Origin: Schlesneria sp. DSM 10557
GTDB taxonomy: Bacteria > Planctomycetota > Planctomycetia > Planctomycetales > Planctomycetaceae
Length of the DNA stretch: 64,000 nucleotides
Assembly: GCF_041860085.1 (NCBI RefSeq)
Contig: NZ_CP124747.1
Location: 2,480,001-2,544,000, forward strand
Direction of reading: 5' to 3'
Shown: positions 42,218-51,448 of the stretch, piece by piece
Layout: the number at the start of each line of letters is the position of its first letter
Numbering within the stretch: the first letter of the stretch is position 1
Program-made: the position numbers and the translations under genes
The notes under the pieces: model-generated
Told to the model about the DNA's origin: nothing
Database searches by the model: none
What the model saw: the letters and a program-made list of their open reading frames with translations, nothing else

Positions 42218-43521
42218 GGTCCATCCGGGATTATTGTGGGTCGAGCTTGAGTCCTCCGCAGTAGAAGAAGATTGCGGTTTTGAAGTTTTGTCTGTTACGG
42301 AAGCCACCGACGCGTCGCTTGATGGACATGATTTTGCTGTTCATACCTTCGGCGACTCCATTGGTAACGCAGTGCGTACAGTAACTTACGACGTTGGCCA
42401 AACGCTCCTTAATCGCGCGGGCAACGGTTTTCATCGGCTCCAGTCGCGTGCGAATCACCCGCTGATACCAGGCGTTGAAAAAGGTTGTGGCACTGGCGGC
42501 AGAGTCTTGCGTCCAAAGATCCCGCAACATTTCTTTGAAGGCCCAGGCTTTCCCCGTTTTGAGCTGTAAGGTGAAGGCTTCGTCGAATCGGGATCGCTGT
42601 TTTTCACTGAGATTCTCCTGACTGGTGAGCCAGACGTACTTCGTGTGACTGAGGCGATCATCACCTTCCTTGAGAAGATTTCGATGCTCAGCGCGTCGGA
42701 CTTTGTCGACCCCCTTCGTGGCCATCTGCATGATGTGGAATCGGTCGTGAACGATCTTCGTTTCTGCCAGGGGAATGGCTTGTTTCGCCGCTTTGACATA
42801 GGCGGCGCTCATGTCCATGGCGATCGCTTCGATTGATTGCAGCTGGGTCTGTGAAAGGGCAGAAAGTGCTGCAAATCCTGCGTCGGCGTCATTTCCATCA
42901 CTGATGGCCTCGACAGTGCTGCGATCCAGATCATAGACCAGCGTGATGTAATTCTGGCCTTTGAGGAAGGCCTTCTCGTCAATTCCCACGCGAGGAATGG
43001 CCACGTCTTGTTTGCGCGCACGACCTCGTGCAACAGCCCTTTCCAGGATGGACCAGGTCTGATCCCATTTCGTTCGCAGAATGCTCATGGCTCCTTTCAC
43101 ATTCTGCGTGGCCAAAAGCACCTGAATGGCGAACCGCTCAAACATCAGAGTGAAACGGCTTCCCTTCTCAGCCCACGGGACGCGGACCTGTTTGACGCCG
43201 TGAACGGGACATTCAACACGAGGAATCCGGGCGAACAGAATCGTCTTGAACTGACAACTATCCAGGTGTCGCCACTGACGCTCTTCGGTATGGTCATAGC
43301 AGCTCAGTTCTTGCTGACAGTCCGGACAGCAAAACCGAGTCCCCGATGGATGCTCGACACGAACCTCGACCCGCAACTGCTCGATATTCAAGGCGACGCC
43401 AGACACCGTCCAGGGACTCTTCAACCCCAAGATCTGCTGATACAATTCCCGATCCTGCATCGTCTCACCTGCTCGGAAATTGACAAATCTTACCAAAACC
43501 CACACGAAAACCGGATGGACC
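42218..43521 (-). mobile_element. ISL3-family insertion sequence, 1304 bp, intact
   Basis: Terminal inverted repeats start GGTCCATCCGG at both ends (42218 rightward, 43521 leftward), followed by a second shared block TGTGGGT in each. The element is flanked by an 8-bp direct repeat AAAAAAAT. It has one full-length transposase gene. The right copy of the duplication is the T-tract (minus strand) of the terminator of the preceding 1150-residue protein gene, and the element lies in the direction of that transcription. Confidence 0.9.
42231..43460 (-). CDS. tnpA: ISL3-family transposase
   Basis: A 409-residue DDE transposase. Start ATG 43460 (MQDRELYQQILGLKSPW) lies inside the IS; the longer frame to 43523 starts outside the element and is rejected. 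An N-terminal zinc finger is visible (FCCPDC with CYDHTEERQWRHLD, and CPVHG). The catalytic core follows: the first Asp in RVGIDEKAFLKGQNYITL, the second in EAIAMDMSAAY, HDRFHIMQM, and the C-terminal Glu in TNGVAEGMNSKIMSIKRR. The stop codon lies within the left inverted repeat. The frame is intact, so the element may be active. Confidence 0.93.
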   Translation of the reverse strand: MQDRELYQQILGLKSPWTVSGVALNIEQLRVEVRVEHPSGTRFCCPDCQQELSCYDHTEERQWRHLDSCQFKTILFARIPRVECPVHGVKQVRVPWAEKGSRFTLMFERFAIQVLLATQNVKGAMSILRTKWDQTWSILERAVARGRARKQDVAIPRVGIDEKAFLKGQNYITLVYDLDRSTVEAISDGNDADAGFAALSALSQTQLQSIEAIAMDMSAAYVKAAKQAIPLAETKIVHDRFHIMQMATKGVDKVRRAEHRNLLKEGDDRLSHTKYVWLTSQENLSEKQRSRFDEAFTLQLKTGKAWAFKEMLRDLWTQDSAASATTFFNAWYQRVIRTRLEPMKTVARAIKERLANVVSYCTHCVTNGVAEGMNSKIMSIKRRVGGFRNRQNFKTAIFFYCGGLKLDPQ

Positions 43522-43529
43522 AAAAAAAT
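43522..43529. repeat. Target-site duplication, right copy
   Basis: AAAAAAAT, identical to 42210-42217. It reads ATTTTTTT on the minus strand and forms the T-tract following the hairpin at 43530-43573. Confidence 0.7.
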
Positions 43530-49084: not shown

Positions 49085-49792
49085 TCAGATGACAATCAGC
49101 CAGGTGAGCAGCACCGCCGCGGCGCCTAGAACGACCGCGAGTAGCTGCACAGAAATGGGACTCGCTTCGATCACTTCGAATTGCTCGCTGATCCAGTTCG
49201 GAAGAGAGATCATCGCTCCTCGTCCAACGGGCTTACAGAGTTTTTCCCCGATCCACTGCAGCCCGTGGGTCAGCCCCCGCAAACGGGCTGTCGTTTTGCC
49301 GGGCGAGGAGGAAACGGCCGGGCCACTGAGGATTCGGATCAGGACACTGAGCAGCAGGCTGACAACTCCCCAAGACAAGAGCGATTGGGGCAGATTCGGT
49401 GAGAACAGAAAGCCCATGGTAGAGGCAAAAAGCAGCGAGCAGGTCACCTGCACGTTCTCTGGCAAGGGGGGACATTTTCGCAACGAGATAGACCAGGCGG
49501 TCAGCAGGATTCCACCACCGATCAGAGTGACCAGGAGTGCCTTGATCAGCGTCGCCTCAGCCCCGAATTCCAGCGAGAATTGACGGGGATTGGGAACCGT
49601 CAGCCAGGTGAATTTCGGTAACGTCACCAGCGCGGGTTCGGAACTGTTCCCACCCGTCAGCAGCACGGCCAGGATCGCAGCACAAAGAGTCCCACCCAGC
49701 ACCCCCAGATGGGTGGCTACGAGGCTCCATGCGTTCCGCCCCAGCATAAAGCAGGTCAGTGATGCGATTGCTCCCATCACTGCGAATGCCAC
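49085..49792 (-). CDS. Truncated NuoL-like membrane protein
   Basis: At least 235 residues, with six or more hydrophobic helices. The N-terminal 160 residues follow NuoL by eye: LPKFTWLTVPNPRQFSLEFG resembles the NuoL segment before helix 3, then a helix, then LLFASTMGFLFSPNLPQSLL and WGVVS in the place of NuoL's WEGVG (Gly142 for the functional Glu). About 370 residues of the antiporter core are missing; after a linker, KPVGRGAMISLPNWISEQFE and a final helix resemble the NuoL C-terminus. The tracked start is GTG 49792, but the first helix continues upstream in frame (QFLLIATVAF), so a rare start such as CTG at 49822 is possible. Third of three linked genes. Function unknown. Confidence 0.6.
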   Translation of the reverse strand: MAFAVMGAIASLTCFMLGRNAWSLVATHLGVLGGTLCAAILAVLLTGGNSSEPALVTLPKFTWLTVPNPRQFSLEFGAEATLIKALLVTLIGGGILLTAWSISLRKCPPLPENVQVTCSLLFASTMGFLFSPNLPQSLLSWGVVSLLLSVLIRILSGPAVSSSPGKTTARLRGLTHGLQWIGEKLCKPVGRGAMISLPNWISEQFEVIEASPISVQLLAVVLGAAAVLLTWLIVI

Positions 49793-49821
49793 CGTAGCAA
49801 TCAGAAGGAATTGAACAGAGG

Positions 49822-50121
49822 TCAGGATGGTTGATGCTCCTGCTCGTGAGTCGTGTCCTCGTCACACCGCGCCACTGCCCCGCACTCCTGAATGATGAGC
49901 AATGTCACGGCGACCATTCCTGCCAGTTTTAATTCTGTCCGTTCCGGGAAGCTGACAGCACTGACGACGATCGTCATCAGGATCCCCTGCCCCAGCAGTC
50001 CCCGCAAGAGACTGCGCTCACGAGTTCCCCGCGCCGAGACGACTCCCGGGATTCCGATCACCAGAAGTAACAGCACGTAAAGCAGTCGGACGACCCAGAG
50101 GCGGTGTTCAGGATTCATCAA
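49822..50121 (-). CDS. NuoK-like small membrane protein
   Basis: A 99-residue protein, the length of NuoK, with three hydrophobic helices (about 8-28, 37-56 and 66-84). RSLLRGLLGQGILMTIVVSA corresponds in place to the second NuoK helix, where the conserved Glu is replaced by Gly or Gln; the third helix keeps one Glu (Glu79, LLIIQECGAVA) where NuoK has its second. The start ATG 50121 lies inside the upstream gene (14-bp overlap), so the two are translationally coupled; NuoL-like follows after 29 nt. The polar tail (DEDTTHEQEHQ) is unlike NuoK. Family assignment is by pattern and order, not clear identity. Confidence 0.55.
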   Translation of the reverse strand: MMNPEHRLWVVRLLYVLLLLVIGIPGVVSARGTRERSLLRGLLGQGILMTIVVSAVSFPERTELKLAGMVAVTLLIIQECGAVARCDEDTTHEQEHQPS

Positions 50122-50983
50122 TGTCTCCCGGGATCTCCGCGGGCGAATCGTCGTCGGACAGATCAGGCGATGGATTCTGCCCCGGCCGATCAGCCATCCT
50201 CGTCATCGCCAGGTGCAGAAACACGACGACGGTAAGCAGGACAATGATGTCCGCGCGTGCCCCGACAAGCAGTTCACTTAATCGGGGTCGATCCTGCGTG
50301 GGCGGCTGCGGAGCAAACACCTCCGACAGTAGTTCCGCAGGAGGAAGAATCGCATGTCGCGGGCTGGAGATCGCACGGGCGGTCTCTGTCCGTACGGCAT
50401 ACGCCAGCGTCCCGATCAGCAGCAGCGCGACGACTACCGTCAGGCTACCGATCAGCAGGTAATCGCCCCGGTTGTCATCGCTGGAAGATCCGGGCTGGAT
50501 GGTCGTCAGTTGAACCAGATGTTCCCGGACGGACTGACGTTCCTGTCGCGCAAAGATTTGGACGAGCGAAACAGACCGGATGGTGCCAATCGCCAGCAGC
50601 CCCAACCCAGCTTCGAACTGTTTCCAGTAGAAGCAGAGCAGCGCATTGGCCACCGCCAGCAGCACATAGGCAAGCTGCCGACCTTCGAACAGCAATCGAC
50701 TCATGACCGCCACCGCCGCCGTGATACCGATCGCCATCAGGCTGAAGGGAATCAGATCGCCCGCTTTGAGGGGAGACACCGCACCTGCTTGGCCACCCCC
50801 CAGCGCCAGAAAAATCATGACGCAGTAAACGAGCGTGGCAAGCCCCGCCCACAGGCGAATTTCGCGATGAACCTGGGGGCTGTGCCACAGCGTCAGCGCC
50901 ACCGCCCACATCCCGAGCAGCAGCACTAACCACCAGGGTAAAAAAGGATCATCCATCGGTCGGCCCGTCACCTGAGTGGTCAT
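50108..50983 (-). CDS. NuoJ-like membrane protein with extra N-terminal helices
   Basis: A 291-residue membrane protein with seven or so hydrophobic helices. Residues about 100-150 (RQLAYVLLAVANALLCFYWK, then QFEAGLGLLAIGTIRSVSLV) resemble the NuoJ region with its helix 2 and the pi-bulge helix 3, but the conserved Tyr and Gly-Ala there are not kept. The C-terminal part has an insertion before a last helix, as NuoJ does (RLSELLVGARADIIVLLTVV). The N-terminal three helices have no counterpart. The last 30 residues are acidic. First gene of the trio; ATG 50983 is used, ATG 50956 is an alternative. Without its neighbours it would be called an unknown membrane protein. Confidence 0.5.
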   Translation of the reverse strand: MTTQVTGRPMDDPFLPWWLVLLLGMWAVALTLWHSPQVHREIRLWAGLATLVYCVMIFLALGGGQAGAVSPLKAGDLIPFSLMAIGITAAVAVMSRLLFEGRQLAYVLLAVANALLCFYWKQFEAGLGLLAIGTIRSVSLVQIFARQERQSVREHLVQLTTIQPGSSSDDNRGDYLLIGSLTVVVALLLIGTLAYAVRTETARAISSPRHAILPPAELLSEVFAPQPPTQDRPRLSELLVGARADIIVLLTVVVFLHLAMTRMADRPGQNPSPDLSDDDSPAEIPGDIDES

Positions 50984-51145: not shown

Positions 51146-51448
51146 TCAGGATTTGACGTTCCGCTGTGGAATCAGCCGCTTGTTGACGTCAATCTGCACT
51201 TCTCCAAAGGCCTGCTCGTGCCGCTGCAGCGATGCGCCCAAGGCCATCCAGAGTCGCTTCGCGGTGAAATAGTTAACCACCAGACGCTGTGTCACCTTAA
51301 CAGGTTGGTTCTGGGCTCCAGGAGCCTGGGAGTTTAATCCGAAATCCAGGACCAGTTCTTCTGGCAGCCCCGAAACGCGAGCAAAATTGGCGTACAGCGG
51401 TTCCAACCCCTCTGACTCAATCACCTGCTGCATTTGCAGGTTCGCCAT
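51146..51448 (-). CDS. DUF3467 family protein
   Basis: A 100-residue soluble protein. ATG 51448 (MANLQMQQVIESEGLEPLYA) is preferred to the frame start at 51592, whose first 48 residues show no domain. The family pattern is clear: PLYANFARVSGLPEELVLDF, then KVTQRLVVNYFTAKRLWMAL and RHEQAFGEVQID. DUF3467 proteins occur widely as short, single-domain proteins of unknown function. The C-terminus is basic. The gene is on the same strand as, and 163 bp upstream of, the NuoJ-like gene, but the spacer is long enough for a separate promoter, so a link is not evident. Confidence 0.85.
   Translation of the reverse strand: MANLQMQQVIESEGLEPLYANFARVSGLPEELVLDFGLNSQAPGAQNQPVKVTQRLVVNYFTAKRLWMALGASLQRHEQAFGEVQIDVNKRLIPQRNVKS

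Follow-up and report, generated by a model that had tools for sequence, protein, structure and literature searches.

Three consecutive genes of Schlesneria sp. DSM 10557 descend from the genes for the complex I subunits NuoJ, NuoK and NuoL, and they may encode a free-standing, non-pumping membrane complex derived from the distal arm of complex I; we put the probability of this reading at about one half. Such a complex would be a pseudo-arm of NuoJ/K/L-type subunits (accompanied by M and N in relatives) with neither redox modules nor a proton path, selected for a role other than transport, and the smallest form seen is the J-K-short L trio of Schlesneria. The set has probably taken on a new, non-pumping job in the membrane in Schlesneria and in two related genera, designated here g26 and g81. 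An initial annotation had read the locus as three consecutive NuoJ-K-L-like membrane-protein genes in canonical order and had offered two alternatives, i.e., a decaying set or a new membrane complex, to be told apart by profile searches, by a survey of gene order among planctomycetes and by dN/dS. The assignment itself is borne out by the homology of relatives' proteins and by profile comparisons.

Organization of the trio locus

The trio lies on the minus strand of the 64 kb window (i.e., the whole stretch of DNA that was analysed), within a genome of 7.07 Mb that is assembled as a single contig. The J-like gene, a NuoJ derivative (50108-50956, minus strand), encodes about 282 residues with seven predicted helices in a weak model; its start is placed at an internal ATG used by relatives, although the frame is open from 50983. 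It overlaps, as had been noticed before, with the K-like gene, a NuoK derivative (49822-50118, minus strand; 98 residues, ATG start, three predicted helices), the shared stretch being 11 nt. The L-like gene, an internally deleted nuoL (49085-49825, minus strand; about 246 residues), likely starts at a CTG at 49825, because the overlap of K stop and L start has the form NTGA in all 14 Schlesneria loci (CTGA in the window, with the CTG at 49823-49825, and ATGA or GTGA in relatives); the GTG at 49792 chosen in the initial annotation is thus probably too far in. Together, the three proteins of the window would have about 7 + 3 + 6 helices (J + K + L).

Directly upstream of J lies a gene for a DUF3467 protein (51146-51448, minus strand; PF11950, E 1.8e-14), the frame of which is open to 51592. 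The same gene is found upstream of J and on the same strand in 12 of the 14 Schlesneria trio loci. An obligatory partnership is ruled out by two trio genomes that are without it (G009 and G014). Since DUF3467 is also common without the trio (158 of 170 family genomes carry it, most of them trio-less), its link to the trio, as a possible operon neighbour, is suggestive only; it may share the trio transcript without belonging to the machine. A transposase of the ISL3 family is encoded at 42231-43523 (minus strand), about 5.6 kb from the trio.

Homology to NuoJ, NuoK and NuoL

None of the J, K and L proteins of the window exceeds a Pfam or NCBIfam cut-off, the short L returned chance matches only in a search of PDB sequences, and the short L of G014 (298 residues) matched no Pfam family. 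As the window's proteins fall under every curated cut-off, homology was shown through their relatives. The long L proteins of G008, G009 and G010 exceed the cut-off of Pfam Proton_antipo_M (PF00361) with E values of 4.7e-9 to 1.2e-6, as do all five long trio L proteins examined, including two of those from G011-G013; the 633-residue L of G010 also matches solved NuoL/NDH-5 chains (subunit 5 of NDH-1/complex I) in the PDB, with a best E of 2.4e-12.

Four trio profiles (J, K, short L and all L) were set against those of canonical planctomycete NuoJ, NuoK and NuoL by hhalign, with reversed and block-shuffled profiles as controls, and the only match of each was to its own counterpart. Trio J (profile A1) aligned with NuoJ over 136 columns in the middle of the protein (probability 94.1, E 1.3e-7; compare 0.5 and 6.9 in its control pairs with NuoK and NuoL, respectively), and trio K aligned with NuoK over 58 columns that cover its first two helices only (89.8, E 1.8e-6; 0.4 and 0.5 against NuoJ and NuoL). 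The short-L profile matched NuoL at a probability of 82.6 (E 9.7e-6), and the profile of all L proteins, a set that takes in the short rows too, at 99.7 (E 2.7e-26). Scores and the maxima of 30 block shuffles were 58.8 and 24.8 for J, 41.6 and 30.6 for K, 49.0 and 26.5 for short L, and 204.4 and 23.5 for all L. The eight off-diagonal pairs gave probabilities of 0.1-6.9%, and reversed profiles gave at most 1.4%; the highest off-diagonal pair, J against NuoL, scored 30.4, which is above its own shuffles (maximum 22.8). In addition, searches of 170 family genomes with trio-J profiles recover canonical nuoJ genes that adjoin nuoI in nine genomes from six other genera. By profile and sequence comparison, the homology of each trio protein to its NuoJ, NuoK or NuoL counterpart is therefore supported.

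The two structure models of the trio are weak (pLDDT 54 and 61). In Foldseek, the poor model of the window's L has complex I ND5/NuoL and MBS subunit H at ranks 1-3 (probability 0.93-0.96, E 0.28-0.34), and the likewise poor model of J finds Mrp and NuoJ chains among GPCRs (E of 0.03 or above). It was also considered whether trio J owes its two extra N-terminal helices to the longer planctomycete NuoJ. Taken alone, the N-terminal segments do align in place (E 0.12), with shuffles scoring equally high, and the isolated C-terminal segments are likewise non-significant; the idea was dropped because the segment alignments are non-significant.

Absence of redox modules and of DabA

The remainder of complex I was searched for by tblastn (threshold 1e-4) with the organism's own NuoB, C, D, F, G, H and I, with E. 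coli NuoCD and NuoE-I, and with both DabA proteins. Neither the 30 orphan loci, which span 5-19 kb each, nor the 64 kb window gave a match to NuoB-I or DabA. The earlier remark that no nuoH, I, M or N is adjacent to the trio is correct; H and I, and B and C-G as well, gave no match in the whole window. Elsewhere in the genome, the same E. coli queries did detect complex I genes. One canonical cluster (L029, at 4.65 Mb) contains CD, E, F, G, H, I, J, K, L, M and N together with a NuoB-like gene, and a second (L030, at 5.72 Mb) contains H, J, K, L, M and N only. Because canonical J, K and L are present in the organism's own clusters, the trio is no replacement for missing complex I subunits. Two nuoL-type genes were found in all eight Schlesneria relatives searched. 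The frame of NuoJ in L029 has 277 residues, compared with 184 in E. coli. The genome also carries PF10070 DabA and NuoL-like genes at two loci (L031, at 5.04 Mb, and L032, at 4.04 Mb); in L031, DabA is followed by two NuoL-like genes.

Distribution in Schlesneria and related genera

When 99 genomes were searched with the short L, 12 gave a match, i.e., the window's own genome, 10 of the 14 other members of the genus, and G048, the last being a weak match with five stops that was discarded as chance. With the J profile, 14 of 15 Schlesneria genomes proved to carry J-K-L in one and the same order, and the conserved order anticipated for planctomycete relatives is thus present within the genus; the trio was not found in G003, an assembly of 1560 contigs that is 89% complete. 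The J, K and L frames are open at all 14 loci. L is short in eight of these genomes and long in six, in which it comprises 491 (G008), 493 (G009), 633 (G010) or 627-628 residues (G011-G013).

A widened profile (A6), applied to 170 family genomes, matched 32 at E <= 1e-6, namely 14 of Schlesneria, two of the three g26 genomes, 11 of g81, and five with canonical nuoJ (G022, G139, G044, G147 and G148); the g81 genome G162 is absent from the matches at this threshold. Outside the family, neither a class sample of 397 genomes (A6) nor a phylum sample of 392 (A4) gave a match, no more than six candidates being scored per genome, so that distant members could escape. Weak J-profile matches (E 0.003-0.01) occur in G117-G119, G112, G023, G173 and G185, of which G173 is an orphan-J genome by a far stronger match at another site.

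The orphan sets of g26 comprise J-K-L-M-N in G039 and J-K-L in G102. The M protein of G039 exceeds the Pfam cut-off (2e-15); the L proteins of G039 and G102 and the N protein of G039 matched no Pfam family and are named by gene order and tree. Among the g81 genomes, G166 carries orphan J-K-L-M together. Orphan L is present in 10 of the 11 J-bearing members and lies on a contig separate from J-K in all but G166. At five g81 L loci, M always follows L, and an N match comes next in four, the fifth reaching a contig edge. L and M of G166 and L and N of G170 exceed the PF00361 cut-off. In most members, J-K and L-M(-N) of the arm thus occupy two different loci (L109, L157, L159, L160 and L161). One g81 J match (G168) may contain an internal TAG. 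A tree of 37 antiporter-like proteins unites the orphan L proteins of the three genera in one clade (99/94), and the closest to it is one of the organism's own NuoL-like proteins from a DabA locus (93/81, with long branches flagged). Given these long branches, the ancestor of orphan L may have been either NuoL or a DabB-like protein.

Loss of proton-path residues

Orphan proteins were aligned with the E. coli and canonical planctomycete copies, and the canonical rows keep the proton-path residues. The orphan proteins are without most of them. In L, E144 of helix 5 is absent from all 20 orphan rows. The earlier observation that the Glu of the WEGVG-type motif is Gly in the window is correct. 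Where the region is preserved, i.e., in 12 orphan L rows, Arg takes the place of K229 throughout and Tyr, Phe, Val or Leu that of H254; K342 is gone from all 12 (deleted in two of them), and K399 is never Lys, being Arg in four g81 rows. Orphan M has lost E144 in four g81 rows and has Pro or Arg at K234 in all five; in orphan N, K217 and K395 are lost in all three rows (with Arg at 395 in g81), and E133 is Gln in the two g81 rows. None of the 16 orphan K rows keeps E36, which is replaced throughout, nor is there a conserved equivalent of E72. The claim that K keeps one of two membrane glutamates holds for the window's protein in so far as it has E78; however, this column is Glu in only 1 of 11 aligned K proteins, i.e., the residue is private to this genome. 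An invariant Gln of K was considered as a substitute for E36, but once canonical planctomycete K is aligned alongside, the Gln sits four residues beyond that site.

Not all of this pattern speaks for an easy non-pumping story. Arg at the K229 site of long L preserves a positive charge, the M proteins of g81 retain K265 and E407, and in G039 both M and N keep their first Glu (E144 and E133, respectively). Moreover, some polar residues are invariant in the orphan proteins, i.e., E200 of J (18 rows), Q44 of K (11 rows) and E216, E219 and E222 of short L (eight rows, P0003 numbering), the last three of which adjoin the last predicted helix and do not lie within it.

A deletion series in L

The NuoL fold consists of 16 helices. 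Relative to E. coli NuoL, the window's L has lost residues about 170-552, i.e., about 380 central residues, and retains the early helices together with the last helix and the end of the lateral one; the description of L as an N-terminal part and a C-terminal anchor without most of the antiporter core was therefore accurate. Two blocks between 327 and 475 are missing from the L proteins of G008 and G009. In one published account, Y590 of E. coli NuoL marks the predicted beginning of the 16th helix (PMC3274701). The deleted span seems to correspond to helices 6-15, an even number, and therefore both kept parts of L could retain their orientation. The size classes of L require three changes on the J tree, the minimum possible, in which the short-L class forms one group in only 16% of bootstrap trees.

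Purifying selection on the trio

Selection was assessed by the Nei-Gojobori method in 24 comparisons of J, K and L over eight genome pairs. In all 24, dN/dS was 0.20-0.38, with dS of up to 2.45 (G008-G009), and bootstraps of 11 comparisons gave upper 95% bounds of 0.32-0.54 (in two bootstraps with the window, 768 and 855 of 1000 resamples gave a value). Each trio gene, the shortened L included, is thus significantly below 1. Compare canonical nuoL with 0.026-0.077 in six of these genome pairs, and three flanking genes with 0.013-0.12. The trio is therefore under real but relaxed purifying selection, its constraint being weak at about 3-10 times the dN/dS of canonical nuoL. Of the two alternatives left by the initial annotation, purifying selection and the order kept in 14 of 15 genomes favour a derived membrane complex over pure decay; in terms of sequence, this complex is supported as a conserved gene set only.

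Constraint is uneven along long L. Between G012 and G011 (L062), dN/dS was 0.467 for residues 1-170, 0.140 for 171-360, 0.351 for 361-545 and 0.157 for the last 83, and the corresponding values for the first two parts between G008 and G009 were 0.374 and 0.223. The N-terminal part that short L keeps is thus the less constrained one in long L, and the long and short forms may differ in their job. This speaks for a change of role when L was shortened, or for looser constraint in this part throughout.

Alternative explanations

It might be argued that the trio is a slowly eroding relic, i.e., that an ancestor's orphan antiporter-like array became functionless and has been vanishing piecewise ever since (M and N gone, L shortened), held by weak constraints such as the avoidance of a harmful misfolded membrane protein. 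The reduction from J-K-L-M-N to J-K-short L, the lost functional residues, the raised dN/dS relative to canonical nuoL and the absence of the trio from one of the 15 Schlesneria genomes, the fragmented G003, would all fit such a course. However, a relic is hard to reconcile with open frames at every one of the 14 loci, with selection that acts on each gene even after L had been shortened, and with the persistence of orphan genes at two loci in g81, and we regard it as rather unlikely.

Alternatively, the trio could serve a canonical NuoL/M/N-type machine of the same cell (a complex I cluster or DabA/DabB) as an accessory or regulator, docking by its native J/K/L faces and acting, for example, as a plug or an assembly aid. 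Candidate machines abound, given the two complex I clusters and two DabA loci of this genome and the two nuoL-type genes of its relatives, but neither a canonical nuo redox, H or I gene nor DabA was found at the 30 orphan loci or in the window, and most genomes of the family lack the orphan set altogether, which makes such a partnership improbable. More doubtful still is an ion conductor or Mrp-like antiporter in which new polar residues have taken the place of the canonical ones. Orphan J-K-L-M-N has the core composition of the Mrp antiporter as laid out in one account (PMC7419157), and the invariant polar residues named above, the Arg at the K229 site and the better conservation of the middle of long L would suit ion movement. 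The window's L, however, is missing the stretch that would hold both antiporter half-channels, M and N have disappeared, the invariant glutamates of L lie beside the last predicted helix and not inside it, and no Mrp subunit was found among the eight neighbouring window proteins scanned.

A free-standing, non-pumping complex thus remains our preferred reading, and its history can be sketched as follows. The ancestor was probably an orphan J-K-L-M-N arm. Its derivative has neither a redox nor a quinone module and is without most of the proton-carrying residues; in Schlesneria, it is reduced to three membrane proteins, with L shortened in steps. The trio is probably made together from its overlapping genes; we infer that J, K and the truncated L pack via their old complex I faces and that the trio may serve as a non-pumping membrane scaffold or adaptor for whatever partner it might have.

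Relationship to known systems and significance

In its homologous subunits and its canonical J-K-L order, the trio resembles the membrane arm of complex I, and short L still has its N-terminal helices and C-terminal anchor, as well as a predicted beta-hairpin that follows helix 2. It differs from complex I in that no NuoB-I gene lies nearby, the Glu, Lys and His residues of the proton path are mostly lost, and the central part of the window's L is deleted. DabAB provides a further parallel, as a NuoL-like protein, DabB, there partners an inorganic carbon transporter outside complex I; however, DabAB is not known to include J and K, which the trio has, and DabA was not found at the 30 orphan loci or in the window. 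The resemblance to the Mrp antiporter is one of subunit composition, i.e., free-standing L-, J- and K-type subunits (and M/N-type ones in g26 and g81) without a redox module, whereas J and L are separate genes here and not one MrpA, and the eight window neighbours scanned include no Mrp subunit. According to the homology map in the account cited above, NuoL corresponds to the N-terminal part of MrpA, NuoJ to its C-terminal part, NuoK to MrpC, and NuoM/N to MrpD (PMC7419157).

Searches of the open-access literature with narrow terms, DUF3467 among their subjects, returned no description of an orphan J-K-L set. A genome survey lists 2,171 species with incomplete Nuo subsets, and the string 'planctomycet' is absent from its main text (PMC12361115). 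The parts described here are of known kinds, and their combination is new.

The membrane arm of complex I is familiar as a device for moving ions, in Mrp antiporters, membrane hydrogenases and DabAB as well as in complex I itself. Here, it has been cut loose and has lost most of its ion-handling residues, and it is still selected. The natural series of L deletions (about 630, 490 and 250-300 residues) bears on which portions of J, K and L stay associated in the absence of pumping. It also raises the question of what such an arm can do when it moves no protons.
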